DNA of 35,646 bases, taken from the NCBI GenBank assembly GCA_016873095.1, contig VGYC01000062.1, positions 1 to 35,646 of the forward strand, in the 5' to 3' direction. The DNA comes from Planctomycetota bacterium. GTDB taxonomy: Bacteria > Planctomycetota > Planctomycetia > Gemmatales > Gemmataceae. Below are positions 529 to 34,180 of this stretch, in pieces (within the stretch, counting starts at the first letter, position 1; the number at the start of each line of letters is the position of its first letter). Under the pieces are notes generated by a model. The model did not search any database. It was not told the origin of the DNA and saw only the letters and a program-made list of their open reading frames with translations. The position numbers and the translations under genes were made by a program.

Positions 529-538
529 GTAATTGGAA

Positions 539-4173: not shown

Positions 4174-4189
4174 GACAAGAAGCAGAATT

Positions 4190-4225
4190 GGGTGCCATGC
4201 CCCCACGGCTTTGCGTGGGCATGGC
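4190..4225. repeat. Palindromic repeat, copy 1
   Basis: GGGTGCCATGC, a variable stretch, then CACGGCTTTGCGTGGGCATGGC forms a hairpin with loop GCTTTG. The same layout occurs at 5784-5822, 8747-8780 and, inverted, 8843-8877. It is REP-like: short, intergenic, palindromic and dispersed. Confidence 0.75.
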
Positions 4226-4229
4226 TGAC

Positions 4230-4300
4230 CATGCCGTGTCGTGATGCTGACCAGGTAGCACGGAATCGGAATTCCGTGCTGCATTTCCGGGCACGGCATG
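4230..4300. other. Nested hairpins between nuoG and nuoH
   Basis: CATGCCGTG (4230-4238) can pair with CACGGCATG (4292-4300). Inside it, AGCACGGAAT (4257-4266) pairs perfectly with ATTCCGTGCT (4271-4280) across a CGGA loop. With repeat copy 1 just before it, most of the 222-bp nuoG-nuoH gap is potentially folded. It could be transcript processing or attenuation structure, or just more repeat DNA. The remainder, 4301-4395, shows nothing else clear. Confidence 0.5.
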
Positions 4301-4395
4301 CTCATTGTTTCAAGGATTCGTCCAGATAGTCGTCCAGAAAGTGACATACACCCCCTCGGCACATCCTTGCTGCGGGTCGACCAGACTGGAATCGC

Positions 4396-7528: not shown

Positions 7529-7592
7529 GCCGACGGCTGAATGTAAGCGCACTGCAAGTTGACGTTGCCTTTCTGAAGACTAACTTCACTTG

Positions 7593-8699
7593 ATGATGCA
7601 CGGCGACGACAAGAAGTACCTGCACCAGATCAGCCACAAGCGCATCGATCCGCCGCCGCTGGCCGGCGGCACGCCGCTCGTCGATATCGTCGAGGAGGCG
7701 TTCCTCTCTTACAACGGCGGCCGGCTGCGCGAGGCGTGCCGGCTGTTCGTCTCCAAGATGCTGGCCGACGACACCACGGTCGGCCTGTCGCTCAGCGGCG
7801 CCCTCACGCCGGCCGGCCTGGGCATGTCCTGCCTGGTGCCGCTCATCGAGGCCGGCTTCATCGACTGGATCGTCAGCACCGGGGCCAACCTTTACCACGA
7901 CACGCACTTCGCGCTGGGCATGGACCTGCATCAGTCCCGGCCGGGGCTGGACGACCTCAAGCTGCGCGAGCACCAGGTCATCCGCATCTACGACATCGTC
8001 TTCGACTACGAGAACCTGCTGGGCACCGACAAGTTCTTCCGCACGCTGTGCCGCGGCGAGGCGTTCCAGAAATCGCTGGGCACGGCCGAGTTTCATCACC
8101 TGGCGGGCAAGTATCTCGACGAGCGCGAGAAGGCCGGCGGCAAGAAGCGCAGCCTGTGGGCCGCGGCCCATCGCTGCGGCGTGCCCATCTTCACCTCGTC
8201 GCCCGGCGATAGCTCGATCGGCATGAACCTGGCCGCCTTGCAACTGGAAGGCTCGGCTTTGAAGATCGACCCGCTCCGCGACGTGAACCAGAGCGCGGCC
8301 ATCGTCTACGACGCCAAGAAAGCCGGCCGCAGCGCCGTCCTCATCCTCGGCGGCGGCTCCCCCAAGAACTTCATGCTGCAGACCGAGCCGCAGATCCAGG
8401 AAGTCCTGGGCCTCGAGGAGAGCGGCCACGACTACTTCCTGCAAGTGACGGATGCCCGCCCCGACACCGGCGGCCTCAGCGGCGCCACCCCGCAAGAAGC
8501 CATGACCTGGGGCAAGGTCGATCCCGAGCAACTCCCCGACACCGTCACCTGCTACCTGGATTCGACGGTCTTCCTGCCCATCTTCACGGTGTACGCGCTA
8601 TCGAAGCACGCCCCGCGCCCGCATCGCCGGCTCATGGACCGCTTGCCTGAGTTGACGAAGCAGCTCGAGGCAGATTACGCCGCACGGCAGCGCGAGTGA
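7593..8699 (+). CDS. Deoxyhypusine synthase-like protein
   Basis: This 368-aa member of the deoxyhypusine synthase family has an NAD-dependent aminobutyl-transferase fold that uses spermidine. Visible marks are LSLSGALTPAGLG, DWIVSTGANLYHD, ILGGGSPKNF, the TDARPDTGGLSGATPQEAMTWGKV segment and CYLDSTVFLPIF. The lysine of MTWGKV (about residue 308) matches the lysine that forms the enzyme-imine intermediate in human DHS. Bacteria have no eIF5A, so the product is probably a polyamine such as homospermidine, or an unknown acceptor is modified; this is inference. The start is one of two adjacent ATGs (7593, 7596), with no clear ribosome binding site. It stands alone on this strand. Confidence 0.9.
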   Translation: MMHGDDKKYLHQISHKRIDPPPLAGGTPLVDIVEEAFLSYNGGRLREACRLFVSKMLADDTTVGLSLSGALTPAGLGMSCLVPLIEAGFIDWIVSTGANLYHDTHFALGMDLHQSRPGLDDLKLREHQVIRIYDIVFDYENLLGTDKFFRTLCRGEAFQKSLGTAEFHHLAGKYLDEREKAGGKKRSLWAAAHRCGVPIFTSSPGDSSIGMNLAALQLEGSALKIDPLRDVNQSAAIVYDAKKAGRSAVLILGGGSPKNFMLQTEPQIQEVLGLEESGHDYFLQVTDARPDTGGLSGATPQEAMTWGKVDPEQLPDTVTCYLDSTVFLPIFTVYALSKHAPRPHRRLMDRLPELTKQLEADYAARQRE

Positions 8700-19700: not shown

Positions 19701-20105
19701 GCGCTGGCGGCGGTTGTCTTCGGCGTGCTGCTGTTTGTCGACAAGCAGGTGCTGGCCCAGCTGGTCTTCGGGCCAACGGCGCTGGCCTTCTTCGCGGTCA
19801 AGACGGCAACCTACTGGATCGAATTGCCGGACGGCGTGGACCTGGCCGGTTTCGCCGTCGGCGGCGTTGGCCTGGCGGTCGTCGTCGCACTGCTGGTCCT
19901 CAACAGGTGCTATCGCCCGCTGGTTGCGCTCATGGTCCTCGCGATCTGGGTGGCGCTGGTGCTTGCCGGCGAGTTCATCGCCAACCTGTTCGGCAATCCG
20001 TTCCTGCACGAAGTCTGGCCCTGGGGCATGTCCTACGTACTCGCCGGCGTGGTCGGCATCCTCTCGCTGGAATGGCTAACTCGCAAGCTGTTGAAACTGG
20101 CATAG
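16734..20105 (+). CDS. Large VWA-domain membrane protein with glutamine-amidotransferase-like region
   Basis: This 1123-aa protein has four N-terminal transmembrane helices (about residues 19-38, 49-71, 80-100, 112-133). A von Willebrand A domain follows, with its MIDAS motif DVSGSMG at Asp151-Gly157 and a later VVMISDGQSNLGSDD. Around 555-605, VILAFDPDWTLLEPKQLQLLKEWVGNHAGGIVFIAGP resembles the class I glutamine-amidotransferase fold seen in BatA-like proteins, without a visible catalytic Cys. About four more helices lie in the last 140 residues. The bulk should be periplasmic. Similar giants are widespread in planctomycetes, usually near MoxR and DUF58 genes, which are absent here. ATG 16734 follows GAGGATGGA. 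Confidence 0.85.
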   Translation: MGEQTEFFLFRRTQEACPNWVIVLPVAFAFAVVLLIVLFKRERRVPTFLWSSAVIGVLSAVYLALPLVLKGLLPGWTLSWWYILIPFLAVGLVYVWLMYLRDAQSIHPVWAAFLGILRCSVYAILAFVFLLPGCQHYDISETFSKTLFLLDVSGSMGTIDDLPEPGQDPAKLPTRQDKVIQFLTSIAQKGDDKTKSFIERIVQKSPVTAYRFGSLADETSVQHLKEGSLPTLGEWTDFLKPDKKKIQVSAKLPVEDQIKLRSKLNDLYDSLLGGTNVGGSALQIARLASGSWLQAVVMISDGQSNLGSDDAVKEFLARVNNSRKKINVFTIGVGEYRQPVSIRIDDLQAPEVARPDDKFPVRVPVIGQGLPDEEFTVTLEMQRVKDKDGKATAGEPKYLLDPKRGKFKGGGDNPHDVVEFDIDIQDIKKVKADKDEGNVLEGTWQFIAKVPRHKNEAFPNEEHASDPPTQVLVQKRKLRVLLFAGGPTREYQFVRTLLYREVQEKRMELAVFLQTGGDDQVDQDVEKDWLLKHFPNRLGPDNPSDPHSSLNEYDVILAFDPDWTLLEPKQLQLLKEWVGNHAGGIVFIAGPVNTFHLARPGGLDLSSLLTIFPVVLKDSRLHSLGIEHDARRPYYLNFTPAARDYPFLKLDDEGTSPTAGWNRFFWRGQKPEGKDSIPVSGFHNYYPVEKLKPASIVIATFAGAASSRINDGKDEQPYIVSMPYGSGKTMYLSQGDFWRLRQFKLNYWERFWIKLARYAAAGTSMQTKYGFMPMGRYYTTGTVPIEAQIKGADLQALPRDVTPRVIVKRPEGFDPKIDPESPESFDLRPKNAQGEWNGWFVGSFKVRTPGEYEFKIPIPGTSDSLSHRIMVKKPNLELDNVRNNFRELYRLSSDAADVLKRLDPETRREVERVLKPPADQDLKDISPDADRAGTRLFFNLKDAGLITKCLVNELPKRENTKGQLVDLWDQGVSSDMGIIAQDLLIWFPAALAAVVFGVLLFVDKQVLAQLVFGPTALAFFAVKTATYWIELPDGVDLAGFAVGGVGLAVVVALLVLNRCYRPLVALMVLAIWVALVLAGEFIANLFGNPFLHEVWPWGMSYVLAGVVGILSLEWLTRKLLKLA

Positions 20106-20197: not shown

Positions 20198-23100
20198 ATG
20201 GCAACCGTGACTTCACCAAAGCGGACGATTGACCGGGCGGACACGGACCGGCGCGTGCGGCATCCCTTGCAGGCCCTGCGCGGCTACATCCGCAGCTACG
20301 TGACCCTGGAAGGGGCCTTCGTCGCCCTCATCTATGTCGCGCTGTGGTTCTGGATCGGTCTGGCCCTGGATTACGGCATCTTCAAGCTCACCAACGGCTT
20401 CGACTGGGTCAAGGAACTGCAAGACCTGTCCCCCGGCGACCGGACTGCTGACTGGATCGTCCGCGGCGTCATCCTTGGCATGCTCCTGGCCGGCTTGCTG
20501 GCGCTGGTCGCCTTCAAGGTCTTCATGCGTTGGTTCCGCGAGTTCCGTGATCCGGCCCTGGCCCTGGTGCTGGAGCGGCGCTTTCCGCACGAGCTGGGCG
20601 ACCGGCTCATCACCGCCGTCGAGATGGCTGACCCGAAGCTGGCCGGCAAGTACGGCTATTCGCAGGCCCTGGTGGACAAGACCATCGTGGATGCCGCCGA
20701 GCGCGTCGAGCAGATTCCGGTCAAGCAGGTGTTCAACTGGGGACGGCTCCGCAAGCTGGCGGGGCTGGTCCTCGCTGTCAGCGTCGGCATGTACCTGCTG
20801 GTGGGCGGTGGCTATCTCGGGATCAACGCGGCCTTCGGCGGTTCAGCCTCGGTCGGCGATTACTTCTGGCGGTTCCAGCACACGGCCGCCATCTGGGTCG
20901 AGCGCAACATCCTGCTGCAGGATTCCTACTGGCCGCGGCAGGCTTATCTTGAGCTGGTCCGTTTTCAGGACACAAAGGAGCATCCGGGCGAGATGCGCAT
21001 CGGCCGTGATGAGAGCCGGCCGGACCTGCAGGTTCGTGCTTTCCAGTGGGTCGTAGCCGACCATTCGTCGCAGGCCGCGAAGACGGGCGGCTGGCGGCCA
21101 TTGACCTGGAACGACTTGCCCGGCTTCGTCGATGCTGCCTTGCTCGGTCGCGTCACCATTCCCGCCCACTGGGGCGGCTGGCAGATGGACCTCGGCGACC
21201 TCGACTCCGACGTCCCTGCAGGCGTTATCCCATCGGTCTGGCAAGGCAAGTCAGCCGGCGCGGTCCGCACCGAGCTGGCGACGGCCGAGTTGAAGAAGGC
21301 AACCGCCGGGTTCGAAGTCCTTGTCGCCGACTGGCTTGACTGGCAGCGCTGGACCGTGGACCGTCTCGGCAGCCAGGCGAACATCGAAGTGGTTCGCCGC
21401 AATCTCCGCGCCGAGCATCCCGAGGCGCAAAAGGCCCTTGATGACGTTTTCGCCAGGATCGAGGAGCTGGCCGGCGACGTGACCATGGAACGCAAGATAC
21501 GCAAGCTGGCTCTGCCCAAGTTTGCCTCCGAGGATCCAGCCGAACAGATCGTCTTTTATTACTGGGGCAAGAACACCAAGATCACCACCGGCCCGGATCG
21601 CTCGGGAGCCAGCAACAGCTTCATCTTCGGCCTGGGCGACCTGAAGGAGTCGGTCGAGTTCACCATCCAGGCGCTCGACTATTCCACGCCGGTGCTGAAG
21701 ATCCAGCTGGTCCCGCCTCCCGGCGTCACCAGCGTGCACGTGGACAAGGAGGAGCCGGCGTATCTCTTCTACCGCCTCCAGGGTGATCAGCGGCCGCTCA
21801 AGGGCAAGAAGCAGATCTTCAAGAACGTCCCCGTCTCCGTCACCGGCGAAGCCAGCATCGTGCAAATCCCCATCGGCGCCAACATGACGCTTTATGCCGA
21901 GGCGGACCGACCGCTCAAGGACAGCGTGCGCATGACGCGGCCGGCCCAGACCGAGGAACGCGGCGCCATCACCCCCATCCAGAAGGTCCAGCTTGCCGAC
22001 GATCAGAAGACCTTTTCCGTCAGCTTCAAGAACGTCGTCAAGACCATCGAGTTCTACTTCGAGTTCACCGATCGCGACAACGTCGGCGGCAAGCGGCGCA
22101 TCGTCATCCGGCCAATCGACGACCGGGCGCCGGAAGTCTTCGACGTGGAGATGCTTGCCGGACTGCGCAAGCCGCGCTTCCGCACCGATCCCGGCAAGTC
22201 CAGCCAGGGCACGGCGGCCGACGGCTTCTTGATCACGCCGGATGCCCTCGTGCCCTTCAAGGGGACGCTGCGCGATGACTACGGCCTCACGCAAGCCAAC
22301 TGGCATTTCGACGTCGAGCCCATCGATTTCGAACTCGTCAGCAAGGGGGACAAGGAAAAGCTGCCGCAGCTGGTTCTTCAGGGCAATGCCCAGCTACGGC
22401 GGCTGGGCCTGGTCGTCAGCGGCCTGTCGACGCATGGCTTCCCGGGGACCGATGCCATCTACTGGGCGTGGGTCAACCGGATGGTGGCTGTCGATCTGGC
22501 CATTTCCGGCAAGCGCTACAACGAGGAAGGGGCAGTCCCGCTGGAGCGCTTCCAGGTCCGCCTCGAGGAACGCGGCGCCGAGGAGTTGACGCTCAACGCC
22601 TTGCTGGAAAAGCTGAAGGAGAAGCCCCCGCAGCGCGCATTGTTCCGCGAGCACACTCTCAAGGACGAGGACGGCTTCGACTTCAAGAAGTATCTGCCCA
22701 AACTCAAGGTCGCCGACGCCACCAAGGAGGCGCAGCTGCATTACCAGGTGCGCCTGTCGGTGTCGGCCACGGACAACAACATTGAGACCGGCCCCTCCGT
22801 CGGCAAGAACAAGGCGCCCTTCACCTTCCTGGTCGTCTCCGAGAGCGAGTTGCTGGCACAGATCTTCCTCGAGGAGGAAAGCATTCGCGACCGGCTCGAC
22901 AAGGCCATCGGCAAGCTGAAGAACGGGCGGACGGCCATCAGCGAACAGCTGGGCAAGCTGTCGTCCCCCGCCACCGATCTGGCGCTGGTCAACATCCGCG
23001 TGGAGGAGGTTCGCAAGGTCGTCTCCGACACGGGCAGCACGTCGCGCGAAATCCACAGCGACTTCAGCCGCATCCTCAAGGAACTGGAGGTCAACCGCGT

Positions 23101-23536
23101 CGGCTACACGCGCGGCAAGCAGAAGATCAACGACGTCCGCGACAAGATTGTCGAACCCATGGAACTGATCATCAACCCGAACTTCGGCAGCTTCATGCAG
23201 ACCGAGGAAAGGCTCAGCGCCCTGGCCAAGGGACTGGAGGACGACACGGCTGCCCTCCGCCAGGCCGAGGCCGACAAGTCGGTGCAGGCCACACGCCTCA
23301 AGCTGCAAGCCAACATCCCCACGCACGTCAAGAACACCCAGTTGACTCGCGACCGCCTCGACGACCTGATCGAGAAGCTCAACTCCGTCTACCTGGCCAT
23401 GGAGGAGGGCGTGGTCTTCGGCCAGCTGCTCCAGACCATCGTCCGCATCGAGCAGGATCAGCGCAAGATCCGCGACGACTGGCGCATTCAGCATGAGAAG
23501 AAGGTGAAGGAATTGTTCGGGGAACTCACCAAGTAG
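20198..23536 (+). CDS. DUF4175-like giant membrane protein
   Basis: This 1112-aa protein has three N-terminal hydrophobic helices (about residues 36-60, 85-108, 186-208), then a long, probably periplasmic, region and a C-terminal coiled-coil stretch (about 890-1112, rich in Glu, Lys, Arg and Leu with heptad spacing, e.g. EEESIRDRLDKAIGKLKNG). The layout and the segment RDPALALVLERRFPHELGDRLITAVEMAD resemble DUF4175-type proteins found beside VWA proteins in planctomycetes and alphaproteobacteria. No enzymatic motif is seen. ATG 20198 lacks an obvious ribosome binding site and sits just after the heptamer hairpin, so its expression may depend on readthrough from the VWA gene. Confidence 0.75.
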   Translation: MATVTSPKRTIDRADTDRRVRHPLQALRGYIRSYVTLEGAFVALIYVALWFWIGLALDYGIFKLTNGFDWVKELQDLSPGDRTADWIVRGVILGMLLAGLLALVAFKVFMRWFREFRDPALALVLERRFPHELGDRLITAVEMADPKLAGKYGYSQALVDKTIVDAAERVEQIPVKQVFNWGRLRKLAGLVLAVSVGMYLLVGGGYLGINAAFGGSASVGDYFWRFQHTAAIWVERNILLQDSYWPRQAYLELVRFQDTKEHPGEMRIGRDESRPDLQVRAFQWVVADHSSQAAKTGGWRPLTWNDLPGFVDAALLGRVTIPAHWGGWQMDLGDLDSDVPAGVIPSVWQGKSAGAVRTELATAELKKATAGFEVLVADWLDWQRWTVDRLGSQANIEVVRRNLRAEHPEAQKALDDVFARIEELAGDVTMERKIRKLALPKFASEDPAEQIVFYYWGKNTKITTGPDRSGASNSFIFGLGDLKESVEFTIQALDYSTPVLKIQLVPPPGVTSVHVDKEEPAYLFYRLQGDQRPLKGKKQIFKNVPVSVTGEASIVQIPIGANMTLYAEADRPLKDSVRMTRPAQTEERGAITPIQKVQLADDQKTFSVSFKNVVKTIEFYFEFTDRDNVGGKRRIVIRPIDDRAPEVFDVEMLAGLRKPRFRTDPGKSSQGTAADGFLITPDALVPFKGTLRDDYGLTQANWHFDVEPIDFELVSKGDKEKLPQLVLQGNAQLRRLGLVVSGLSTHGFPGTDAIYWAWVNRMVAVDLAISGKRYNEEGAVPLERFQVRLEERGAEELTLNALLEKLKEKPPQRALFREHTLKDEDGFDFKKYLPKLKVADATKEAQLHYQVRLSVSATDNNIETGPSVGKNKAPFTFLVVSESELLAQIFLEEESIRDRLDKAIGKLKNGRTAISEQLGKLSSPATDLALVNIRVEEVRKVVSDTGSTSREIHSDFSRILKELEVNRVGYTRGKQKINDVRDKIVEPMELIINPNFGSFMQTEERLSALAKGLEDDTAALRQAEADKSVQATRLKLQANIPTHVKNTQLTRDRLDDLIEKLNSVYLAMEEGVVFGQLLQTIVRIEQDQRKIRDDWRIQHEKKVKELFGELTK

Positions 23537-23605: not shown

Positions 23606-23725
23606 CGAACCAGGACGTGACAAACGCTCAGTTTTCTGGTAAATGTGTTGGAAAGGGCAAAAAGGCTCGTCTTATCCACGTCCGGCACGGGGACTGTCTC
23701 TGGGCGGGCGCGGGAGGAATCATCC

Positions 23726-25873
23726 ATGAAGTCGCGATGGACATTGACGATTTTGGGGCTTGCGGCCGTGCTCGTCGCGGTCAACCTGCGGGCCGGCGCT
23801 CAGACGAAGCCGAAGGCTGATGATTCAGTCCAGATCCGCGAGGACCTGGCCCTGAAGCAGCAGATCCTCTACCGGCAGTTTGCGGAGTTCGAGCAGGCCC
23901 TGCTCCGGCTGCAGCAGCGCCTGGAGCGCAGCACCAAGGCGGAGGAGCGCGAGCGGGCCGCCATCCTGGCCAAGGCGCTCGAAAAGTCGCGTGACAAGTC
24001 CATCACCACCCGCTTCGAGCAGTTCGTCGATTACCTAAAGACCGGCAAGCTGACCAGCGTCAGCGACATCGCCAAGGCCGTCAAGCAGAGCAACGACCTG
24101 GCCGAGGATCTCCGCGACCTCATCGCCCTGCTGCGCGAGGATACGCTCGCCGCCCGCAAGCGCGAGGAACGGCTGGGCCTCGAGGAGATGATCAAGAAGC
24201 TCGAAAACATCATCCGCGACCAGAAGACGGCCGAGGGCCAGACCCGCATCGGCAAGACCGAAACGAGCGAGCTGATCAAGATTCAGAACACGGTCACTCA
24301 GGCGACCGCCGACCTCCTTGACAAGATGAACGGCAAGAATGGCAAGGGGGGCGAGGCCAAGAACGCGCCGGGCCAGTCGAAGGCGGGAGGCAAGGACGGC
24401 GGCAAGAAGGGTGAGAGCAAGGAGGTCGGCAAGGACCCAGCGAAGCAGGGCGAGGGTCGCGAGGCCGGCAAGTCCGGCAAGTCCGGCGATGCCAAGCCCG
24501 GCGAGGCTAAATCCGGCGAAGCCAAGTCCGGCGACCCGAAGGGCGGCGACCCGAAGGGTGGCAAGGAGGGCCAGGCCGGCTCCAAGAGCGGCAAGGGCAG
24601 CGAAGGCTCGAAGTCCGGCGGCGCCAAGGACAGCAAGTCCGGCAGCCAGGGCGGCGCCAAGGATAACAAGGGCGGCGACGGCAAAGAAGCCGGCGCCAAG
24701 GATAAGGGCGGCGTCAAGGAGAAGACCGGCGAGGCCAAGGGCACTGAAAAGCCCGGCGACGACAAGGACAAGAAGGGCGAGCAAAGCTCCTCCAAGTCCG
24801 GCGGTCAGGGCAAGGAGGGCCAGGCCGGCTCCAAGAGCGGCAAGGGGGGCGAGAGCAAGTCCGGCGAGTCCAAGTCCGGCGGCCAGAAGAGCAAGCAGGG
24901 CGAGGCCAAGGCCGGCAAGTCCGGACAGTCATCCTCCAAGAGCGGCCAGCAGCAGAGCGGCAGCCAGCAGGCCGGCAGCAAGTCCCCGCCCAGCGCCAGC
25001 CCGCCCGGGCCTCAGAAGGACTCCCCGCCCAAGCAAGACGTCGCTCAGAGCAAGAAGAGGATCGAGGACGGCAACTATCAGCAGAAGCAGGCCGAGGAGA
25101 ACATCGCCAAGGGCAAGAACGACCCGGCCAGCGAGAACCAGATCAAGGCCATCAAGGATCTCGAGGCTGCCAAGAAGAAGCTCGAAGACCTGCTTCGCCA
25201 GCTGCGCGAAGAGGAACTGGAGCGGCTGCTGGCCGCCTTGCAGGCCCGCTGCGAGAAGATGCTGGCCATGCAGATCCAGGTACTGGCCGGCACCGAGACG
25301 GTCTTCGCGAAGATTCAGTCGCACAAGGACAAGCTGGCCGACAACTTCGACAAGCGTGACTCCTTGAAGCTGTCCGACGACGAAAAGGAGATCGTGGTCG
25401 AGGCCACCAAGGCGGTCGAGATGCTCGAGGCCGAGGGCTCGGCCGTCGCCTTCCCGGAGGTCTTCAAGCAGATCCGCGAGGACATGAAGCACGTCCAGCG
25501 CCGCCTCAACATCGTCGACACCGGCGCTGTCACCCAGGCCATCGAGAAGGACATCATCGACACCCTCAAGGAGATGATCGAGGCCCTCAAGAAGAAGCGC
25601 GAGGAGATGGACAAGAACAAGAAGCCGTCTTCGCCCAAGAGCGGCAACCCTCCTCCCAATCAGGATCAAAAGCTGCTTGACCAGATCGCCGAGTTGAAGA
25701 TGATCCGGTCGATGCAGAAACGCGTCAACACCCGCACCACGGTTTACGGCGACCAGTACACCGGCGAGCAGGCCGCCGAGCCGCGCATCGTTGGCGAGTT
25801 GCGTAATCTCTCCGAGCGTCAGGAACGAATTTTCGAGGTCACCAATCGCATTGCAAAGGGGGACAACAAGTGA
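23726..25873 (+). CDS. Secreted coiled-coil protein with Gly/Lys/Ser-rich linker
   Basis: This 715-aa protein has a signal peptide (MKSRWTLTILGLAAVLVAVNLRAGAQ). A helical, charge-rich region (about residues 30-195) follows, then about 245 residues of low complexity built from GKSG, GEAKSG, GDPKGG and SKSGK units (about 200-445), then a second coiled-coil domain (450-715). The linker is strongly basic and likely disordered. No enzymatic motif is seen. ATG 23726 has an excellent site (GGGAGGAATC) and begins the signal peptide. Its TGA overlaps the GTG start of the next gene (25870-25873). A structural or scaffolding role with the preceding membrane proteins is plausible but unproven. Confidence 0.85.
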   Translation: MKSRWTLTILGLAAVLVAVNLRAGAQTKPKADDSVQIREDLALKQQILYRQFAEFEQALLRLQQRLERSTKAEERERAAILAKALEKSRDKSITTRFEQFVDYLKTGKLTSVSDIAKAVKQSNDLAEDLRDLIALLREDTLAARKREERLGLEEMIKKLENIIRDQKTAEGQTRIGKTETSELIKIQNTVTQATADLLDKMNGKNGKGGEAKNAPGQSKAGGKDGGKKGESKEVGKDPAKQGEGREAGKSGKSGDAKPGEAKSGEAKSGDPKGGDPKGGKEGQAGSKSGKGSEGSKSGGAKDSKSGSQGGAKDNKGGDGKEAGAKDKGGVKEKTGEAKGTEKPGDDKDKKGEQSSSKSGGQGKEGQAGSKSGKGGESKSGESKSGGQKSKQGEAKAGKSGQSSSKSGQQQSGSQQAGSKSPPSASPPGPQKDSPPKQDVAQSKKRIEDGNYQQKQAEENIAKGKNDPASENQIKAIKDLEAAKKKLEDLLRQLREEELERLLAALQARCEKMLAMQIQVLAGTETVFAKIQSHKDKLADNFDKRDSLKLSDDEKEIVVEATKAVEMLEAEGSAVAFPEVFKQIREDMKHVQRRLNIVDTGAVTQAIEKDIIDTLKEMIEALKKKREEMDKNKKPSSPKSGNPPPNQDQKLLDQIAELKMIRSMQKRVNTRTTVYGDQYTGEQAAEPRIVGELRNLSERQERIFEVTNRIAKGDNK
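24561..24597 (+). repeat. Exact 37-bp direct repeat, unit 1
   Basis: The stretch beginning GCAAGGAGGGCCAGGCCGGC is repeated without change at 24810-24846, encoding KEGQAGSKSGKG in the low-complexity linker. Identity at wobble positions suggests recent slippage or duplication. Confidence 0.85.
24810..24846 (+). repeat. Exact 37-bp direct repeat, unit 2
   Basis: Identical to 24561-24597, 249 bases downstream (83 codons), in the same reading frame. Confidence 0.85.
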
Positions 25874-26694
25874 ACCGGCAATATTCCATCCCGGTCGTGG
25901 CCCTCGGGCTGTTCCTGATGGGGACCGGCTCGGCACTGGCCGCTAATGTGAAAGAGAAGATGGTCTCCTTCGGGGCCCTCGAAGCCGTCAAGGCCGAAGC
26001 TGCCCGTACCCAGGCGGCGGCCTGGCTCAAGGACATCGGCAAGACCGACGCGGCCACCACCCAGCAGCTGAACGCCATCTGGGCGCGTGAGGATCGCACG
26101 GTTCTCGACCGCGTTGCCGATTCGCTGGCCCTGGGCAGCGCCGACGCCGCCCGCTTGCTGGCACAGGCGCGCGACCCGCGCACGCCGGCACCGACCGAGG
26201 TGCCCGCTATCCTGAAGGACGCCAAGCAGCCCACCTTCTTCCGCGCTAACCTGGCCCTGGCTTATGCCCGCGCCCTGGCCAACCGCCGCGTTCACGAGGA
26301 AGCTCTCGATACCTTGAAGCTGGTTCAGCCTGAGCACGTGGTGGCCCCCGCTTCTTACCTGTTCCATCGCGCCGTCTGCGAGCACGCCCTGCTCCAGCGC
26401 AAGGAAGCTTCGCGCACGATCAATCGTCTGCTCGACGACACCGCCAGCGATTCGCCGGAGCGCTACAAGACCGTGTCCGCCCTGATGCTGCTCGATATGC
26501 AGACCTGGAAGGACAAGGACCTGGGCGCCATCGCTCGCAAGATGGAGAACATCGAACGCCGCCTGGAACTGGCCCGGGGCGGCCCCCAGACCCAGAAGCT
26601 GCAACGGGAAGTTCTCGCTCGCCTCGACGAGATGATCAAGGAGCTTGAGAACAAGGCCAAGCAGCCGCCAAATCCTTCGCCGGGCGGGTCCTGA
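25870..26694 (+). CDS. Secreted helical protein, C-terminus cut by in-frame TGA
   Basis: The 274 residues before the TGA contain a signal peptide (MNRQYSIPVVALGLFLMGTGSALAA), then an all-helical domain with TPR-like spacing (ANLALAYARALANRRVHEEALDTLKLV, about residues 117-143), a helix near the end (LDEMIKELENKA) and a Pro/Gly tail. Translation starts at GTG 25870, overlapping the previous stop, with an AAAGGGGG site upstream. The frame resumes directly after TGA 26692-26694 and stays open for 92 more codons of protein-like sequence. The intact gene was therefore probably 25870-26973. Function is unknown; the position suggests a partner of the preceding coiled-coil protein. Confidence 0.8.
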   Translation: MNRQYSIPVVALGLFLMGTGSALAANVKEKMVSFGALEAVKAEAARTQAAAWLKDIGKTDAATTQQLNAIWAREDRTVLDRVADSLALGSADAARLLAQARDPRTPAPTEVPAILKDAKQPTFFRANLALAYARALANRRVHEEALDTLKLVQPEHVVAPASYLFHRAVCEHALLQRKEASRTINRLLDDTASDSPERYKTVSALMLLDMQTWKDKDLGAIARKMENIERRLELARGGPQTQKLQREVLARLDEMIKELENKAKQPPNPSPGGS

Positions 26695-26973: not shown

Positions 26974-27016
26974 CGCTGTCTTGACATCGTCGCCTTCGCC
27001 ACTGGGTTGAAGCTTT

Positions 27017-27053
27017 CGCGGACCGCCGGGGACCAACCCCGGCGGCTCGCGTT
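27017..27053 (+). terminator. Terminator-like hairpin
   Basis: CCGCCGGGG (27023-27031), loop ACCAA, CCCCGGCGG (27037-27045) is a perfect 9-bp stem, extended by flanking CGCG pairs and followed by a short TTT. It separates the block ending at 26973 from the NPCBM gene at 27085. Confidence 0.5.
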
Positions 27054-27084
27054 TACAGAAGCCACCCTTACACAAGGGTTCGAC

Positions 27085-28251
27085 ATGATCATGCAACTTT
27101 GTCGCGCCATGTGTCTCGCGATCCTGTTCGGGTCCATTGCCGCCGCCGACGAGGTCAAGACCTTGAGCGGCAAGTCGGTCGTCGGCACGGTCGTTTCTCT
27201 GTCCGATAGCGTGGTCTTGGTCAAGACACCCAAGGGGGAAGAAAAGGTGCCGCTGGCGCAGGTGCTGGCGGTGGAGTTGCGGCCCGCCAAGGGCATGGGG
27301 ACGGAGAAGTATTCCGACGTCCGCTTGCTCGACGACACCGTGCTGCATTGCACAAAGGTCGTTCTCAAGGGCAAGGATGTGCAGCTCACGCTGCCTTCGG
27401 GGACAGCACTGTCGCTGCCAGTGAATTACGTCGTGTCGATCTGGCACGAGGCGCAGAACGCCCCCCTGAGAAAGAAGTGGGAAGAGCTGCTCGCCCAGCG
27501 CGTCAAGAAGGATCGCATTGTCGTCGTCAAGGACGGCGAGCTGAATCCGCTGGAAGGGACGATCGGCGAGGTGGATGCCGAGGGCAAGACCGTGCAGTTT
27601 CGCCGCGAGACCGGCGACGTGCTGCCAATCACGCTCGATCGCCTGAACGGCATGGTGTTTCACCGCCTGGAAGTGCCGACCACCAGCCCGGTTTGCAAGG
27701 TCATCGACACGCAGGGCAACACCTTGATGGCCGTGAAGGTCGCCTTCGACGGCAAGAAGTATCAGGTGACCACGTCATTTGCAGCCAACGTGTCGCTGGA
27801 TCCCGAGGCGCTCGCCAGGCTCGATTTCAACATGGGCAAGCTGACGTACCTGGCCCGGCCGGAAAAAGAGCCGAAGGCGGGCACCGGCATCGCCGGCGAG
27901 GGCTACGTACGCGACCTGGCCGACGCCCCGATCGCAATGGACGGCCAGAACTTCGGCCGTGGCGTGTGGGCGCGGGGCCCCATCGAGCTGGAGTACAACC
28001 TCGACGGCAAATTCAAGGAGTTCAAGGCCTTCCTGGGAGTGCATCCGGACTTCTCGGTAGAAAGCAAGGCGGTGGTGACGATCTTCTGCGACGGCGAGAA
28101 GCGCTTCTCGGAATCGCCCGCCAAGGCCATGCGGGCCATCGCCGTCAACGTCAAGGACGTGACCACGCTCAAGATTGTTGTCACCACGCCGGACCCATTC
28201 AATAACCTGCACGCCCAGGCGGTGCTGGCGGAGGCGCGGGTGAGTCAATGA
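27085..28251 (+). CDS. Secreted NPCBM-domain protein
   Basis: This 388-aa protein has a signal peptide (MIMQLCRAMCLAILFGSIAAA). The next 240 residues are beta-rich and contain SH3-like repeats around SGKSVVGTVVSLSDSVVLVKTPKGEEKVPLAQVLAVEL and EGTIGEVDAEGKTVQFRRETG. The C-terminal 120 residues match the NPCBM/NEW2 domain (novel putative carbohydrate-binding module): GVWARGPIELEYNLDGKFKEFKAFLGVHP, VTIFCDGEKRF, then LKIVVTTPDPFNNLHAQAVLAEARV. ATG 27085 has AAGGG 6 bases upstream and begins the signal peptide; a longer upstream frame would bury it. The likely role is binding envelope or extracellular sugars. It precedes three HtrA-like genes. Confidence 0.85.
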   Translation: MIMQLCRAMCLAILFGSIAAADEVKTLSGKSVVGTVVSLSDSVVLVKTPKGEEKVPLAQVLAVELRPAKGMGTEKYSDVRLLDDTVLHCTKVVLKGKDVQLTLPSGTALSLPVNYVVSIWHEAQNAPLRKKWEELLAQRVKKDRIVVVKDGELNPLEGTIGEVDAEGKTVQFRRETGDVLPITLDRLNGMVFHRLEVPTTSPVCKVIDTQGNTLMAVKVAFDGKKYQVTTSFAANVSLDPEALARLDFNMGKLTYLARPEKEPKAGTGIAGEGYVRDLADAPIAMDGQNFGRGVWARGPIELEYNLDGKFKEFKAFLGVHPDFSVESKAVVTIFCDGEKRFSESPAKAMRAIAVNVKDVTTLKIVVTTPDPFNNLHAQAVLAEARVSQ

Positions 28252-28393: not shown

Positions 28394-30196
28394 ATGGCAA
28401 CTCGCCGCGGATTCGTCCTGGCTCTCATCATCGGCATGGTGTTCCTCGCTGGCTGGCGGAGCCTGGCACAGGACGCCGACGTGCTCCGCGATGAGGCGGC
28501 GCGGGTGGCCGTCGTGGACAAGGTTCGACCCGCGGTGGTGGCCGTCTTCGCTCGCGGCGGGCAGGGGGGCGGTTCCGGCGTGCTCATCAGCGACGACGGC
28601 TATGCCCTCACCAACTTCCACGTCGTGCAGGCGCCCGGCCCGGTCATGCAGTGCGGCCTGGCGGACGGCGTACTCTACGACGCCGTGCTGGTCGGTCTTG
28701 ACAAGGTCGGCGATGTCGCCCTCATCAAGCTGCTCCCCAAGAAGGCAGGCGAGAAGTTCCCGTTCGCCGTCATGGGCGACAGCGACAAGGTCCGCGAGGG
28801 CGACTGGTCCCTGGCCATGGGCAACCCGTTTCTGCTCGCCACCGACTTCACGCCCACCGTGACGTTCGGCCTGGTCAGTGGCGTGCATCGCTATCAGTAC
28901 CCGGCCGGCACGCTGCTGGAATACACCGATTGCATCCAGATCGACACGTCGATCAATCCGGGCAACAGCGGCGGGCCGCTTTTCGACATGAAGGGGGAGT
29001 TGATCGGCATCAACGGCCGCGGCTCGTTCGACAAGCGTGGCCGCATCAACTCCGGCGTCGGCTACGCCATCTCCATCAACCAGATCAAGAACTTCATGGG
29101 CCACATGCGCGCGGGGCTCGATTCGGACCACGCCAGCCTGGGCGCCCTCATCACCACACAGACCGAGAAGAGCGGGCTGGGGCGAATGATGGTGACCTCG
29201 ATCCTCGAGGAATCGGACGTTTATCGCCGCGGGCTGGATATCGATGACGAGTTGCTGTCCTTCGCCGGGCGGACCATCTCAAGCGTCAATCAGTTCAAGA
29301 ATGTGATGGGCTTGTATCCGCGCGGCTGGCGGATGCCGCTGGAATATCGCCGCGAGCAAACGCGCAAGGAGATTCTGGTGCGGCTGATGGGCGTGCAGGC
29401 ACGCATCTTCGACGTGGGCGACAAGCAGCCGCAGCCGCCGCAACAGCCGCCCAAGGGCATCAAGCTGCCCAAGGGCCCGCCGTCGCCGGCCGCCAAGTTC
29501 TACCAGGCCAAACAGGGCTTCGCCAACTACTACTTCAACAAGCTCGAGCAGGATCGCCTGCTGGCCGGCTTCCGCAAACTCGGCGACTTCAGCGGTCTGG
29601 CCGGCATGTGGACGATGGACGGCACGGTTCGGCTGCTGAAGCTCAAGAGCGAAAGCAAGTTCCGCATCGATATAACGGAGGACAAGGCGAAGGACGCCAA
29701 GGTCTTCCGGCCCCTGGTGAAGATGACCGTCGGCGAATTCCCCTATCAGGTGCTGCCGCTGGAAGCGCAAGACCCCACTCTGCTGCGCGTGCCGGAGAGC
29801 AGCGGCGGCTTGCTGACGGCGATGTATGTCTACCACCAGCTACTGAACCAGGGGGCCAAGCCGTTTAGCGAGTTCGCGCACGGCGGGCACGAGCCGCTCT
29901 ATCCGCCGTCGTCCGACGGCAAGACGAGCAAGCTCGCCGACCTGCGCGTGGACACCGAGGTGCTGAACACGCGCCTCGGGCCGTTTCTGGTCAAGTGGTT
30001 CTTCGCCCTGTCGGACCAGAAGCTCCTGGGCTACGAGGTCCGCCTGAACGAGAACGAGGATCCGTGTGAGGGGTACCTGTCGGACTACCGCGCAGTCGAT
30101 GGCCGACAACTGCCGCACCGCCTGCAGGTCGTCTACGGCAATACGTCCTATGGAACATTCACCTTCAACCGCTTCCAGCTAGGAACGGCAAAGTGA
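28394..30196 (+). CDS. HtrA/DegP-like serine protease, triad intact
   Basis: This 600-aa exported S1C (trypsin-fold) protease has a signal peptide (residues 1-25) and a catalytic triad of His76 (ALTNFHVV), Asp107 (KVGDVALIKL) and Ser192 (INPGNSGGPLFD). One PDZ domain follows (about 250-340, with GLDIDDELLSFAGRTISSVNQF), then a proline-rich hinge (QPQPPQQPPKG) and a C-terminal domain of about 230 residues not found in classical DegP. It should degrade or remodel periplasmic proteins. ATG 28394 has GAGGGA upstream and begins the signal peptide. It heads a tandem of three related genes. Confidence 0.93.
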   Translation: MATRRGFVLALIIGMVFLAGWRSLAQDADVLRDEAARVAVVDKVRPAVVAVFARGGQGGGSGVLISDDGYALTNFHVVQAPGPVMQCGLADGVLYDAVLVGLDKVGDVALIKLLPKKAGEKFPFAVMGDSDKVREGDWSLAMGNPFLLATDFTPTVTFGLVSGVHRYQYPAGTLLEYTDCIQIDTSINPGNSGGPLFDMKGELIGINGRGSFDKRGRINSGVGYAISINQIKNFMGHMRAGLDSDHASLGALITTQTEKSGLGRMMVTSILEESDVYRRGLDIDDELLSFAGRTISSVNQFKNVMGLYPRGWRMPLEYRREQTRKEILVRLMGVQARIFDVGDKQPQPPQQPPKGIKLPKGPPSPAAKFYQAKQGFANYYFNKLEQDRLLAGFRKLGDFSGLAGMWTMDGTVRLLKLKSESKFRIDITEDKAKDAKVFRPLVKMTVGEFPYQVLPLEAQDPTLLRVPESSGGLLTAMYVYHQLLNQGAKPFSEFAHGGHEPLYPPSSDGKTSKLADLRVDTEVLNTRLGPFLVKWFFALSDQKLLGYEVRLNENEDPCEGYLSDYRAVDGRQLPHRLQVVYGNTSYGTFTFNRFQLGTAK

Positions 30197-30205
30197 GACG
30201 ACAAA

Positions 30206-30234
30206 TGGGTGGCACGCCCAGGGCGTGCCACCCA
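30206..30234 (+). terminator. Perfect 14-bp palindrome between protease genes
   Basis: TGGGTGGCACGCCC, a single A, GGGCGTGCCACCCA. No U-tract follows. With a one-base spacer the hairpin would open a few pairs to form a loop. It could end or process the first protease transcript, or be a repeat element. Confidence 0.5.
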
Positions 30235-30301
30235 ACCGGCAAACGACAAGTGACAACAACTGGCGAGCCGGGAGCGTAAGCGACCGGAGGAGACAGTAAC
30301 G

Positions 30302-31375
30302 ATGAAACGTACAATCGGCGCCGCCGTTATTCTCCTGGGGGCCATCGCCGCCTGGCCGACGCACGTGCCGGCGCAACAGCCGTTTACCACGGTGGCGGCG
30401 GGCGTCAACAAGAAGATGGTCAAGCTGTTCGGCGCCGGCGGCTTCAAGGGGCTGCCGTCTTATGGCACGGGGATCCTGGTCTCGCCCAACGGCTATGTCC
30501 TCACGGTCAACAATCACATTCTGTCGACGTCGGACTTGCGCGTGCACCTGTATGATGGCCGGTTCCATCACGCCAAGGTCGTTGTCAAGGAGCCGGAGCT
30601 GGATCTGGCGCTGGTGAAGATTGAAGGCGAAGTGGAAGGCCTGCCGCACTTCGACGTGGACAAGGCGAGCAGCCAGCCCCTGGCCGGCGCCGGCGACTGG
30701 GTGCTGGCGTTCAGCAACCAGTTCCAGATCGCGACGCGCGACGAGCCGATGTCGGTGCAGCGCGGCGTGATCGCGGCCATGACGGAGCTGCGCGGTCGCC
30801 GCGGCATTTTCGAGGCCCCGTATAACGGCGACGTGTATTTCCTCGACGCCATCGCCTGCAATCCTGGCGCTGCCGGCGGCATCATCACCAATCGCAAGGG
30901 CGAGTTGCTCGGCATCCTCGGCCGCGAACTCAAGAACACGCTCACCGACACCTGGATCAACTATGCCGTCCCCATCCAGGCCAAGGCCGACATCCAGCGC
31001 GGTGACAAGTCCGATACCGTCAGCCTCGCCTCCTTCGTCCGCCTGGGCATCGAGGGCAAGTACAAGGAAGGCGAAAAACGCAAGCTGGTGGACAAGGGTG
31101 GCTACCACGGCATCATGCTCGTTCCCAACGTGGTCAGCGCCACGCCGCCGTATGTGGAAGAGGTCATGCCCAACTCACCTGCCGCCAAGGCCGGCCTGCA
31201 GCCAGATGACCTGATCGTCTACGTCAACGGCGAGCTGGTGACCAGCATCCGCGCCTTCCGCGAGCTGATGAAGCACTTCGGCGCCAACGACAAGGTCACC
31301 ATGGAAGTACAGCGCAGCAACAAGCTCAAGAGCGTCAAGCTGGAACTGACAGAGGTTCCGAAGCTAACGAAGTAG
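30302..31375 (+). CDS. HtrA-like protein with Ser-to-Ala change
   Basis: This 357-aa exported trypsin-fold protein has a signal peptide (1-24). His72 (VNNHILS, with one extra residue before it) and Asp101 (PELDLALVKI) remain, but the nucleophile motif reads NPGAAGG instead of NPGNSGG, so Ala191 replaces the catalytic serine. A PDZ domain closes the protein (EEVMPNSPAAKAGLQPDDLIVYVNGELVTSIRAFREL, about 280-350). It should bind but not cut peptides. ATG 30302 has GGAGGAG about 11 bases upstream. It follows the intact protease by 105 bp, a gap holding a perfect palindrome. Confidence 0.9.
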   Translation: MKRTIGAAVILLGAIAAWPTHVPAQQPFTTVAAGVNKKMVKLFGAGGFKGLPSYGTGILVSPNGYVLTVNNHILSTSDLRVHLYDGRFHHAKVVVKEPELDLALVKIEGEVEGLPHFDVDKASSQPLAGAGDWVLAFSNQFQIATRDEPMSVQRGVIAAMTELRGRRGIFEAPYNGDVYFLDAIACNPGAAGGIITNRKGELLGILGRELKNTLTDTWINYAVPIQAKADIQRGDKSDTVSLASFVRLGIEGKYKEGEKRKLVDKGGYHGIMLVPNVVSATPPYVEEVMPNSPAAKAGLQPDDLIVYVNGELVTSIRAFRELMKHFGANDKVTMEVQRSNKLKSVKLELTEVPKLTK

Positions 31376-31419
31376 GTGGGTGTCCTTTGGGAAGTGAATG
31401 GTTCGCGGAAGGAAGCGGG

Positions 31420-31872
31420 ATGAGACAGCAGACCGAAGTCGACCTTCCGGAGTTGTATGCCGAGGATGAGACGGCATGGCTCGATGCGATGGTCGAGTTG
31501 CTAGCGGCCGGGGACCACGGCCAACTCGACTTCGCCAGCCTGCGGGAGTACTTGACGGACATGGCCAGGAGAGACCGCCGAGAGGTTGAAAGCCGGCTCG
31601 TCGTTCTGCTCGCGCACATCCTCAAATGGGTGCATCAACCAGACAAGAGGTCCCGGAGTTGGCAGGTATCGATTGTCGAACAGCGGCAGGAATTGAAGCG
31701 GCTTGCTGGGCGTGGTGTCCTGCGAAACCACGCCGAGTCCGTGCTGGCGGATGTCTACCGAGAGGCGCTGGAGCGCGCTGCCGCGGAGACAGGGTTGGCG
31801 GTGAGCGCATTTCCGGACGACTGCGCGTATTCCTTGGATGCGTTATTGTCGTTCGATGCTGGGCAGTCGTGA
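31420..31872 (+). CDS. DUF29 family protein
   Basis: This 150-aa protein contains the DUF29 block LYAEDETAWLDAMVELLAAGDHGQLDFASLREYLTDMARRDRREVESRLVVLLAHILKWVHQPDKRSRSWQVSIVEQRQELKRL, ending FPDDCAYSLDALLSFD. DUF29 proteins are small, helical and widespread in cyanobacteria and planctomycetes; their function is unknown. ATG 31420 follows GGAAG and fits the family start. Third-position GC is lower than in the protease genes on both sides, which suggests later insertion into the protease tandem. Its end overlaps the next small ORF by 17 bases. Confidence 0.88.
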   Translation: MRQQTEVDLPELYAEDETAWLDAMVELLAAGDHGQLDFASLREYLTDMARRDRREVESRLVVLLAHILKWVHQPDKRSRSWQVSIVEQRQELKRLAGRGVLRNHAESVLADVYREALERAAAETGLAVSAFPDDCAYSLDALLSFDAGQS

Positions 31873-32065
31873 CATTGACGCTGCTGTTCGCGAGTTGGCG
31901 GCAACATCGGGGTTCGCGAAAGTGAAAGATCGGGTCTCAAACTTGCTTTGGGATAATTGGCCTCAGTGGCAAATCGTCAAGCCTAACCTGGACAGAGTGT
32001 GGCGGGAACTGGCAGCCATCAAGGCCGAATTGGGTGCGACTGGTGAAGGCCCGGGCGCAGACTAA
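31856..32065 (+). CDS. Small hypothetical protein overlapping DUF29
   Basis: This 69-aa frame has plausible composition: RDIDAAVRELAATSGFAKVKDRVSNLLWDNWPQWQIVKPNLDRVWRELAAIKAELG. It starts at ATG 31856 inside the DUF29 gene (an in-frame ATG at 31838 is an alternative) and ends 21 bases before the next gene. It has the same AT-leaning codon use as DUF29, so the two probably travelled together. No family recognised; a coupled partner of DUF29 is possible. Confidence 0.5.
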   Translation: MLGSRDIDAAVRELAATSGFAKVKDRVSNLLWDNWPQWQIVKPNLDRVWRELAAIKAELGATGEGPGAD

Positions 32066-32086
32066 CTGTACAAGTCGAGGAACGCC

Positions 32087-34180
32087 ATGCATCGGCAACG
32101 ATCTCTATACATCCTGGCGGCGCTGGTCTTCATGCCGGTCTGCCGGCTGTCGGCGCAGGACATCAACGACAAGGTCGAGCTGGCCATGAAGCAGGCCGTC
32201 GCCAAGGCGGCGCCGAGCGTCGTGCAGATCGTCACGCAGGGCGGCGCGGACATGGTCGTCACCGGTCCGAAGGGACCGGCATTTCGCAAGGCCCTCGGGC
32301 CCACCACCGGCGTCATCGTCGGCGCCGACGGCTATGTCGTCTCCAGCGCCTTCAACTTCATCAACAATCCGACTGTGATCCTGGTGGCGGTCCCCGGCAA
32401 GGCCGAGCCGCTGGTCGCCAAGCGAGTGGCCACGGATCGGGCCCGAATGGTGACCTTGCTGAAGGTCGAGGCGACGGGGCTGCCCGTGCCGGCGTTCGTG
32501 CCGCGCAAAGAGCTACGTGTCGGCCAATGGGCGATCGCCCTCGGCCGGACGCTCGATGCTAAGCGTGCCAGCCCGCCGTCGGTGAGCGTCGGCATCATCA
32601 GTGCGCTGGACCGCATCTGGGGCCGGGCCTTGCAGACGGACGCCAAGATTTCACCAGTCAACTACGGCGGCCCGGTGATCGACATTCAAGGACGCGTGCA
32701 GGGCATCCTGGTCCCGGCTTCGCCGCGCGGCGACGGGGAAACCGCCGGCTTCGAGTGGTACGATTCCGGCATCGGCTTCGCGATTCCCATGGAGGACGTG
32801 TTCGCTGTCCTGCCGCGCCTCAAGCAGGGCAAGGATCTCATGAAAGGCCTGCTCGGCGTGCGCCTGGCCAGCCAGGATATTTACGGCGCTGCCCCGATTG
32901 TCTCGGACGTGGTCAAGGACTCGGCGGCGGCCGCGGCCGGCATCAAGGCCGGCGACCTCATCGTCGAGATCGACGGCAAGCCGGTCGTCCGCATGGCTCA
33001 GATCCTGCACATCCTGGGGCCCAAGTACGAAGGCGACAAGATCACGCTGAAATTCAAGCGCGGCAACGAGGTCATTGCCGTCAACGACCTCGAGCTGGTC
33101 AGCAGCTTGAAGCAGTTTGCCCATTCCTACCTGGGCATCCTGCCCATGCGCGACGACCCGAAGCTCGGCGTCGAGGTCCGCTTTGTTTTTCCGAAGTCGC
33201 CGGCCGAAAAGGCGGGCCTCAAGGCCGGCGACCGCATCGTCAAGATCGGCCAGGGCAAGACCATGAGGCCGTTCAGCGGCACCAAGTCCGGGCGCGACGA
33301 GCTCTTCGATTTCCTCAACGTTCAGTCGCCGGGCACCGAGCTGCAACTCGAAGTCGTCCGCCAGGATGCCAAGGACAAGAAGACGGATATGCTCAAGGTG
33401 ACGCTCGACAGGCTGCCAGGCATCGCCAAGGCCGGCCAGGAAGAAATCCCCACGAAGCTGCCCGAACCGGCCAGCCACAAGAAGGCACTGGCCCCGCTGG
33501 AAACAACCAACCCAAACATCAAGCCGCCCAAGATCGACCCGGGCAAGGACAAGCCGGCCACCGGTTTCATCAAGCGCCTGGCCACCGCGGGCGGCAAGTA
33601 CTGGATCTACGTGCCTGAGGACTATGACCCGAACATTGCCCACGCCCTGGTCGTGTTTCTGCATCCGCCGGGAAAACACGGCGACGATGATACGGAACGC
33701 TTCGCCGACGCATGGGCGGATTATTGCTCCGACAACCGCATCATCCTCCTGCAGCCCACGTCCGACAAGGAAAGTGGCTGGGGTCCCGGCGACATGGAAT
33801 ATGTGCTGGAGACGGTTCGCGACGTGACCAGTCGCTACACGATCGATAGACAGCGAATCGTGGCTCACGGACTCGGCGTGGGCGGGCAGATGGCACTTTA
33901 CCTCGGTTTTCATGCCCGGGACCTGTTCCGGGGCGTGGCCACCATCGGCGCCGTCGCCACCCAGATGAAAGACAACGTCGCCGGCCAGCGACTATCGTTC
34001 TACATCGCCGGAGGCGACCGCGACCCCCTCATCAAGTCCATTGCCGAGGGGCGCGACAAGCTGGTCCAGCGCAACTTCCCAACCTTCTACCGCGAGATAC
34101 CCAACCGCGGTCGAGAGTACTTCGAGGAGGCCATCCTGCGCGAGATGATTCGCTGGATCGATTGCCTGGACCGCCAGTAG
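32087..34180 (+). CDS. Triad-less HtrA-like protein with two PDZ domains fused to a hydrolase-like domain
   Basis: This 697-aa exported protein has a signal peptide (1-23) and a trypsin-fold domain (about 25-245) in which all three catalytic positions are changed: His to Phe89 (VVSSAFNF), Asp to Met121 (RARMVTLLKV), Ser to Tyr193 (VNYGGPV). PDZ1 (about 253-340) and PDZ2 (345-442, SPAEKAGLKAGDRIVKIGQG) follow, then a Pro/Lys linker and an alpha/beta-hydrolase-like domain (495-697: ALVVFLHPPG, IVAHGLGVGGQMALYL). The nucleophile elbow GxSxG reads GLGVG, so Gly597 stands in place of Ser. It looks like a binding protein built from two dead enzymes. GAGGAA precedes ATG 32087. Confidence 0.85.
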   Translation: MHRQRSLYILAALVFMPVCRLSAQDINDKVELAMKQAVAKAAPSVVQIVTQGGADMVVTGPKGPAFRKALGPTTGVIVGADGYVVSSAFNFINNPTVILVAVPGKAEPLVAKRVATDRARMVTLLKVEATGLPVPAFVPRKELRVGQWAIALGRTLDAKRASPPSVSVGIISALDRIWGRALQTDAKISPVNYGGPVIDIQGRVQGILVPASPRGDGETAGFEWYDSGIGFAIPMEDVFAVLPRLKQGKDLMKGLLGVRLASQDIYGAAPIVSDVVKDSAAAAAGIKAGDLIVEIDGKPVVRMAQILHILGPKYEGDKITLKFKRGNEVIAVNDLELVSSLKQFAHSYLGILPMRDDPKLGVEVRFVFPKSPAEKAGLKAGDRIVKIGQGKTMRPFSGTKSGRDELFDFLNVQSPGTELQLEVVRQDAKDKKTDMLKVTLDRLPGIAKAGQEEIPTKLPEPASHKKALAPLETTNPNIKPPKIDPGKDKPATGFIKRLATAGGKYWIYVPEDYDPNIAHALVVFLHPPGKHGDDDTERFADAWADYCSDNRIILLQPTSDKESGWGPGDMEYVLETVRDVTSRYTIDRQRIVAHGLGVGGQMALYLGFHARDLFRGVATIGAVATQMKDNVAGQRLSFYIAGGDRDPLIKSIAEGRDKLVQRNFPTFYREIPNRGREYFEEAILREMIRWIDCLDRQ

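Follow-up and report, generated by a model that had tools for sequence, protein, structure and literature searches.

Why would a bacterium keep, in one locus, an HtrA-type protease with an intact catalytic triad and two HtrA-type proteins without one? The question is raised by three genes, here called A, B and C, on a contig (VGYC01000062.1, assembly GCA_016873095.1) of a planctomycete of the family Gemmataceae. We analyzed the whole 35,646-nucleotide stretch of DNA in which they lie, referred to below as the window, and use its numbering for coordinates throughout. The initial annotation had linked a live protease to two dead paralogs in one locus, and our survey of relatives bears this out: an active protease and two conserved pseudoproteases behave as one genetic unit. 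That A, B and C are almost always kept or lost together in the surveyed genomes suggests that they belong to one machine with a single active site.

Active sites and domains of the three proteins

Direct reading of the open reading frames (ORFs) and their residues identifies A, B and C as three HtrA-like ORFs on the + strand and confirms the triad states first assigned to them. A has His76/Asp107/Ser192; B retains His72 and Asp101, with Ala191 replacing Ser; and C has Met121 in place of Asp and Tyr193 in place of Ser. The assignment of Phe89 to the His position of C does not stand in the same way, this position being alignment-dependent (F89, N90 or I92 with MAFFT, HMMER and hhalign), and none of the candidates is His in the window. 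All three proteins match Trypsin_2 in Pfam (E 3.6e-28, 4e-18 and 7.8e-18 for A, B and C). Their N-termini resemble Sec signal sequences as judged by eye, which supports the envelope location proposed at the outset.

We sought the same positions in relatives of the same class, searching 79 genomes (that of the window included) and fetching loci for 60 of the others. Left unfetched were fragmentary C matches (G014, G030, G041, G044, G047), G073, and other-family genomes without a strong C match. The alignments, window included, hold 49 rows for A, 50 for B and 53 for C, with some near-duplicate loci omitted. Also omitted were A rows that were partial or broken (L039, L046, L049, L076) or in which the A query had matched C (L034, L037, L075, L088, L094), and one C row, L064. 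The C gene of this last locus, in genome G021, has a reported in-frame TGA, for which sequencing error and local decay are indistinguishable.

The full His-Asp-Ser triad of A is present in 49 of 49 rows. At the Ser position of B we find Ala in 39 of the 50 rows, Gly in 6, His in 2 and Asn, Gln and Ser in one each; the single row with Ser has Gln in place of His, so that no B row holds a full triad. His is found at the His position in 23 rows of B and Asp at the Asp position in 45. In C the Ser position is Tyr in 53 of 53 rows, preceded by Asn and followed by Gly-Gly, and a fuller listing gives Tyr in all 59 usable rows as well as in the window. None of the 53 has Asp at the Asp position or a full triad, and a His occurs somewhere in the aligned stretch 84-95 in 6 of them, in one case at position 90. 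The Ser-to-Ala and Tyr193 states first noted in the window thus extend to other planctomycete genomes, and B and C, failing the triad test, are predicted pseudoproteases of the HtrA fold. The protease-like domains have mean pairwise identities across 44 genomes of 69% (A), 53% (B) and 57% (C). Conservation across relatives excludes chance as the source of the pattern.

The comparison with DegP that had been suggested as a check is supported by the predicted structures. The AlphaFold model of A (mean pLDDT 89.9) matches DegP (8f0a_A, E 1.4e-25), with the protease and PDZ domains of DegP/DegQ matched over residues 31-336, and the model of C (mean pLDDT 90.6) likewise matches DegP/DegQ, with DegP 3otp_A (E 2.8e-29) among the matches. 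In Pfam searches the PDZ_2 match of A lies under the cut-off (17.3 against 27 bits), B has one PDZ domain above cut-off, and C has PDZ matches above cut-off in two stretches. Against the NCBIfam Do-family model TIGR02037, A scores 203.1 bits and does not reach the cut-off of 416.2; judged by its sequence it is an HtrA relative and not a canonical Do protease.

Both A and C carry a further C-terminal domain. That of A comprises ~235 residues past the PDZ domain (about 365-600) and is modeled by AlphaFold as helices followed by long strands. A sequence search of the PDB gave no match to it, and structure searches with the model of A list matches to its HtrA part. Among 35 members of this domain, 8 match DUF4292 (best E 1e-4), a family we take to belong with LolA/LolB, and one matches LolB (E 0.023); these matches are weak, and none is to the domain of the window itself. 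Provisionally, we regard the domain as LolA/LolB-like. The C-terminal domain of C is alpha/beta-hydrolase-like (esterase 3wyd_A, E 1e-15), and the nucleophile position of its GxSxG motif is Gly597 in the window. The possibility that C is an active esterase by virtue of this third domain is rejected in nearly all rows; L040 is the only one of the 53 with Ser at this position. C is predicted to be dead twice over, its protease-like site and its hydrolase-like domain both being without the catalytic Ser. Because matches to C from outside the class cover only the protease and first PDZ domains (with the exception of G159), the hydrolase part appears to have been added later.

Inheritance of the trio in the class and the phylum

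The order A-B-C on one strand is found in 55 of the 60 class loci; of the other five, three are truncated at a contig end, while the remaining two, from a single genus (G070, G072), have C unlinked. In the window the three genes share strand and order, as first described, but they are not strictly adjacent, a DUF29 gene lying between B and C. Two genomes of the window's own family, G010 (84% complete) and G038 (92% complete), give no C match stronger than about 1e-22, and the trio is therefore not universal in the family.

To extend the comparison to the phylum we searched 392 genomes of varying completeness with profiles for A, B and C. Presence cuts were chosen after viewing the scores (at least 304 bits for A, 233 for B and 268 for C). 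For B the next score below the cut is 174.9 and for C it is 255.0; the A scores show no clear gap (G357 317.7, G360 299.9), so that calls of A outside the class lean also on its neighbors B and C. On these cuts A is present in 68 genomes, B in 66 and C in 67, the C-positive genomes comprising 38 in the class and 29 outside it (15 families). All three genes are found together in 66 genomes and none in 324. The two others are G190, which has A and C without B in an assembly of about 1340 contigs, and G357, scored as 'A only', whose A-like gene belongs to another type of trio described below; genomes with that type are otherwise scored as 'none'. In four genomes without C (G056, G060, G061, G064) the A and B profiles give ordinary HtrA scores only, and G067 has a B-like match of 180.6 bits with A and C absent.

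The active-site states hold beyond the class. The next 20 loci fetched include 17 from outside it, of which 16 show A-B-C and one (L224) is cut by a contig end; of the three in-class loci, L237 shows A-B-C and the other two, L235 and L236, show just C. The full triad is present in 17 of 17 A proteins (the His of L230 and L231, misaligned in the alignment, was read directly), in 0 of 17 B proteins and in 0 of 20 C proteins, and the Tyr of C is present in 20 of 20. Intact triads in B or C of relatives, which would have meant recent decay, are thus absent from this wider set as from the class, and conservation of gene order, on which the initial proposal leaned, is seen in both. Another 20 stretches, fetched from 18 genomes, added 11 trio loci in which every B has lost the Ser, and at least 10 of the 11 C proteins have the Tyr motif among the matches listed, L253 not being listed. 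The C protein of L251 has Ser in place of the Asn before the Tyr. All three genes are kept even where they are dispersed, at three places in G070 and G072 and with A-B together and C apart in G301 and G323.

Outside the class, 6 of 26 A-B pairs, spread over four families, have A and B joined in one ORF (L225, L227, L228, L233, L248, L250). The fused order is protease-PDZ-middle domain-pseudoprotease-PDZ. The stretch before the fused B has no signal-peptide-like hydrophobic run, the highest 15-residue mean being 0.27 to 1.08; on the same measure unfused B proteins reach at least 1.43 in 50 class proteins and 1.71 to 2.97 in five from outside the class.

In a quick tree of 92 protease domains A, B and C each fall on one side of a branch (SH-aLRT 99, 99 and 100), apart from the other HtrA paralogs of these genomes. 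The tree has SH-aLRT support only, 34 of its 89 inner branches are below 80, and it has one long branch (L007). The same sub-groups recur within the A, B and C clades (L218 with L221 and L222; L228 with L248). The separate clades and recurring sub-groups imply that the trio predates the class and was inherited as a set, by what we take to be descent or joint transfer. The stepwise loss of the triad initially read from the window is unsupported as a single evolutionary series: A, B and C form three old parallel clades, and the active-site state of each is separate, fixed in some and drifting in others.

The searches also uncovered a second type of trio. A group from other families scores between C of the present kind and ordinary DegP. 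Six stretches from five genomes (L238, L242-L246) hold tandem HtrA genes of which one is intact and two have no recognizable triad; in L242-L246 the intact gene stands last. The middle gene of L242 keeps a Ser motif and has no His motif, and for one gene of L244 no motif is listed. L239-L241 have one or two genes of this type, and G220 carries two such trios. The tree places L238_xA as the sister of A (96) and the other xA rows with ordinary HtrA; most of the xC rows fall with C (94, not starred), and the xB rows lie outside the B clade. A rearranged two-dead-plus-one-live trio in other families would make the design a recurrent one.

A probable mixed HtrA assembly and its alternatives

HtrA proteases are built from trimers, in which loops L3 and LD carry regulation from one subunit to its neighbor. 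Given the matched presence of the three genes and the A-B fusions, a mixed HtrA assembly is the simplest reading, and we think it probable, with moderate confidence, that the three proteins come together in a single periplasmic HtrA assembly and that A alone does the cutting. The three paralogs would share the places of the trimer, so that one type of position would be active and two would be inactive. The catalytic site would come from A, whose LolA/LolB-like domain is a possible binder of a lipidated or hydrophobic ligand. B and C would contribute PDZ domains and the loops that switch between neighbors, sensing or holding substrate and setting the activity of A without cutting, and in C the invariant Tyr loop may plug the site and make it rigid, for a structural or allosteric purpose. 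Such an asymmetric one-live/two-dead set would allow inter-subunit signaling to be studied without engineering.

Several known systems, cited here by PMC identifier, resemble parts of this assembly. The closest analog is MamE/MamO of magnetotactic bacteria, in which, as in the trio, an active HtrA and a pseudoprotease of the HtrA fold are encoded in one locus; MamO, the dead partner, is required for MamE proteolysis and activates MamE without an active site of its own (PMC4794232). MamE/MamO differs in having two genes amid magnetosome genes and a TauE domain in MamO (PMC4794232), whereas the trio has three genes, LolA-like and dead hydrolase domains, and no magnetosome genes in the window. 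Against the NCBIfam MamE and MamO models (NF040960 and NF040961, cut-off 800 bits) the highest score of A, B or C is 101.7, for A to MamE. Plant Deg7 resembles the A-B fusions in joining an active and an inactive HtrA domain in one chain, the inactive domain being reportedly involved in trimerization (PMC3473262); it differs in being one eukaryotic protein that has four PDZ domains and lacks both a third paralog and a LolA-like part. Plant Deg5 and Deg8 are, like the trio, different HtrA paralogs sharing one compartment, but both have full triads and each forms an oligomer of one protein, a trimer for Deg5 and a hexamer for Deg8 (PMC3640471). HTRA1 trimers engineered to include a Ser-to-Ala subunit show activity, the mutated subunit supporting that of its neighbors (PMC11252331); these are man-made mutants of a single human gene and not a set of paralogs found in nature. 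No description of the trio was found in the literature searched (titles, openings of abstracts and selected passages of open-licence PMC papers).

Several observations weigh against a mixed assembly. HtrA proteases are in general symmetric homo-oligomers whose subunits activate one another, and homo-oligomers of B and of C are possible as well. Four genomes have C apart from A-B, which means that the genes can do without tight co-translation, and neither the C-terminal domain of C nor the Bat-type neighbors described below are universal. For MamE and MamO, moreover, physical interaction had not been detected (PMC4794232). The presence of C where it is unlinked would also suit a different arrangement, in which A is an ordinary homotrimer and B and C make up separate inactive oligomers, acting as holdases or adaptors that pass clients to A. 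HtrA proteins act as chaperones too, an established activity, and B and C are each complete as proteins, having a signal sequence and PDZ domains of their own. We nevertheless judge this arrangement unlikely, if a serious contender, as it is difficult to reconcile with the joining of a live and a dead domain in one chain in six genomes and with the one-to-one match of presence and copy number.

A more distant relationship, in which B and C are repurposed binders or scaffolds (for metal, lipid, glycan or the MoxR/Bat complex) that have little to do with proteolysis by A and are co-kept for the same envelope structure, we consider improbable. It would find a parallel in the transition metal bound by the MamO pseudoprotease (PMC4794232), and would suit the second dead enzyme domain of C and the NPCBM protein among the neighbors. 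It does not readily explain why B and C retain the entire HtrA protease-PDZ layout, or why, in the genomes sampled, A is missing wherever B and C are missing, with the exceptions of G190 and G357. That B and C are decaying duplicates of A en route to loss has next to no chance of being correct: nothing speaks for it but the gradation among the three active sites of this single genome, and the relatives refute it, with the same states phylum-wide, an invariant Tyr in C, old separate clades and high identity within B and C. Recent decay of duplicates was rejected on the same active-site states and clades.

Upstream genes and other features of the window

The trio stands at the end of a longer array whose fullest gene order is MoxR-DUF58-BatA-VWA-M1-K-U-N-A-B-C (features of the window are given in Table 1). 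In the 55 intact class loci K is present upstream in 45, U in 44 and N in 45, making N, the NPCBM protein originally noted beside the trio, a conserved neighbor; K is also found outside the class. A tblastn survey of 17 stretches upstream of trios of this kind detected BatA and VWA in 12, of which eight also have MoxR and DUF58 (L176, L177, L178, L180, L274, L275, L276, L287) and four have BatA and VWA only (L273, L277, L279, L285). The VWA gene of L176 comes from a separate observation, and MoxR, DUF58 and BatA were confirmed by Pfam in L176 and L177. L179, at a contig start, has M1, K, U and N, and L284 has K only. By tblastn none of the module genes was found in L181, L278 or L283, or beside the second-type trios of L280-L282. 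In the genome of the window MoxR, DUF58 and BatA sit on contig C35 and not beside the trio, and in the window an aminotransferase gene precedes the VWA gene.

Because the unit is encoded behind this Bat-type membrane module (BatA-VWA, often MoxR-DUF58-BatA-VWA) and the NPCBM protein, control or maturation of an envelope complex would be its most likely role. A fuller version of the mixed assembly, a genetically fixed natural 1:1:1 heterotrimeric HtrA whose one active site is regulated by two pseudoproteases and which is coupled to the MoxR/Bat membrane machine, is a possibility that we advance tentatively. The trio may then give MoxR/Bat sets, whose function is unclear, a periplasmic output in planctomycetes. 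In Leptospira biflexa deletion of all bat ORFs left growth and the tested oxidative-stress tolerance unchanged (PMC3557215).

The array recalls the MoxR-vWA ternary systems, in which MoxR and VWA genes lie by trypsin-like domains, planctomycetes included, and in which the trypsin-like domains in the effector position are nearly all inactive (PMC7159879). The trio differs on two counts: the MoxR gene is part of a Bat-type set with DUF58 and BatA, and each trypsin fold belongs to an individual exported HtrA/PDZ protein. The words HtrA and BatA are absent from the text of PMC7159879.

Table 1. Position and supporting evidence of the trio and its neighbors in the window
Feature	Coordinates	Strand	Basis
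Gene A, predicted exported HtrA-type protease	28394..30196	+	ORF, Trypsin_2, intact triad
Gene B, predicted exported HtrA-type pseudoprotease	30302..31375	+	ORF, Trypsin_2 + PDZ
Gene C, predicted exported HtrA-type pseudoprotease	32087..34180	+	ORF, Trypsin_2 + two PDZ
DUF29 gene between B and C	31387..31872	+	Pfam PF01724, E 6.9e-36
Gene N, NPCBM/NEW2-domain protein, upstream neighbor	27007..28251	+	Pfam PF08305, E 2e-14; start codon uncertain
Gene U, exported protein, upstream neighbor	25870..26694	+	Pfam: no match
Gene K, Lys/Ser/Gly-rich, probably coiled-coil, upstream neighbor	23645..25873	+	
Gene M1, large membrane protein, upstream module	20198..23536	+	
VWA-type membrane protein, upstream module	16734..20105	+	VWA_2 weak, E 0.0013, below cut-off; same position in relatives

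The region between B and C (31387-32086) consists of the DUF29 gene and a brief unassigned part, an insertion unseen in the 60 class loci, where tblastn gave 0 matches to DUF29. The gene appears to be an insertion absent from the class relatives fetched and to lie outside the conserved unit. The middle of gene K is a long low-complexity part rich in Lys, Ser and Gly, and AT skew reaches 0.417 in the bin 24001-26000. Further upstream the window holds a gene of the deoxyhypusine synthase family, here in a bacterium (7590-8699, Pfam E 1.8e-67), and Complex I ORFs resembling NuoF, NuoG and NuoH (533-5631).

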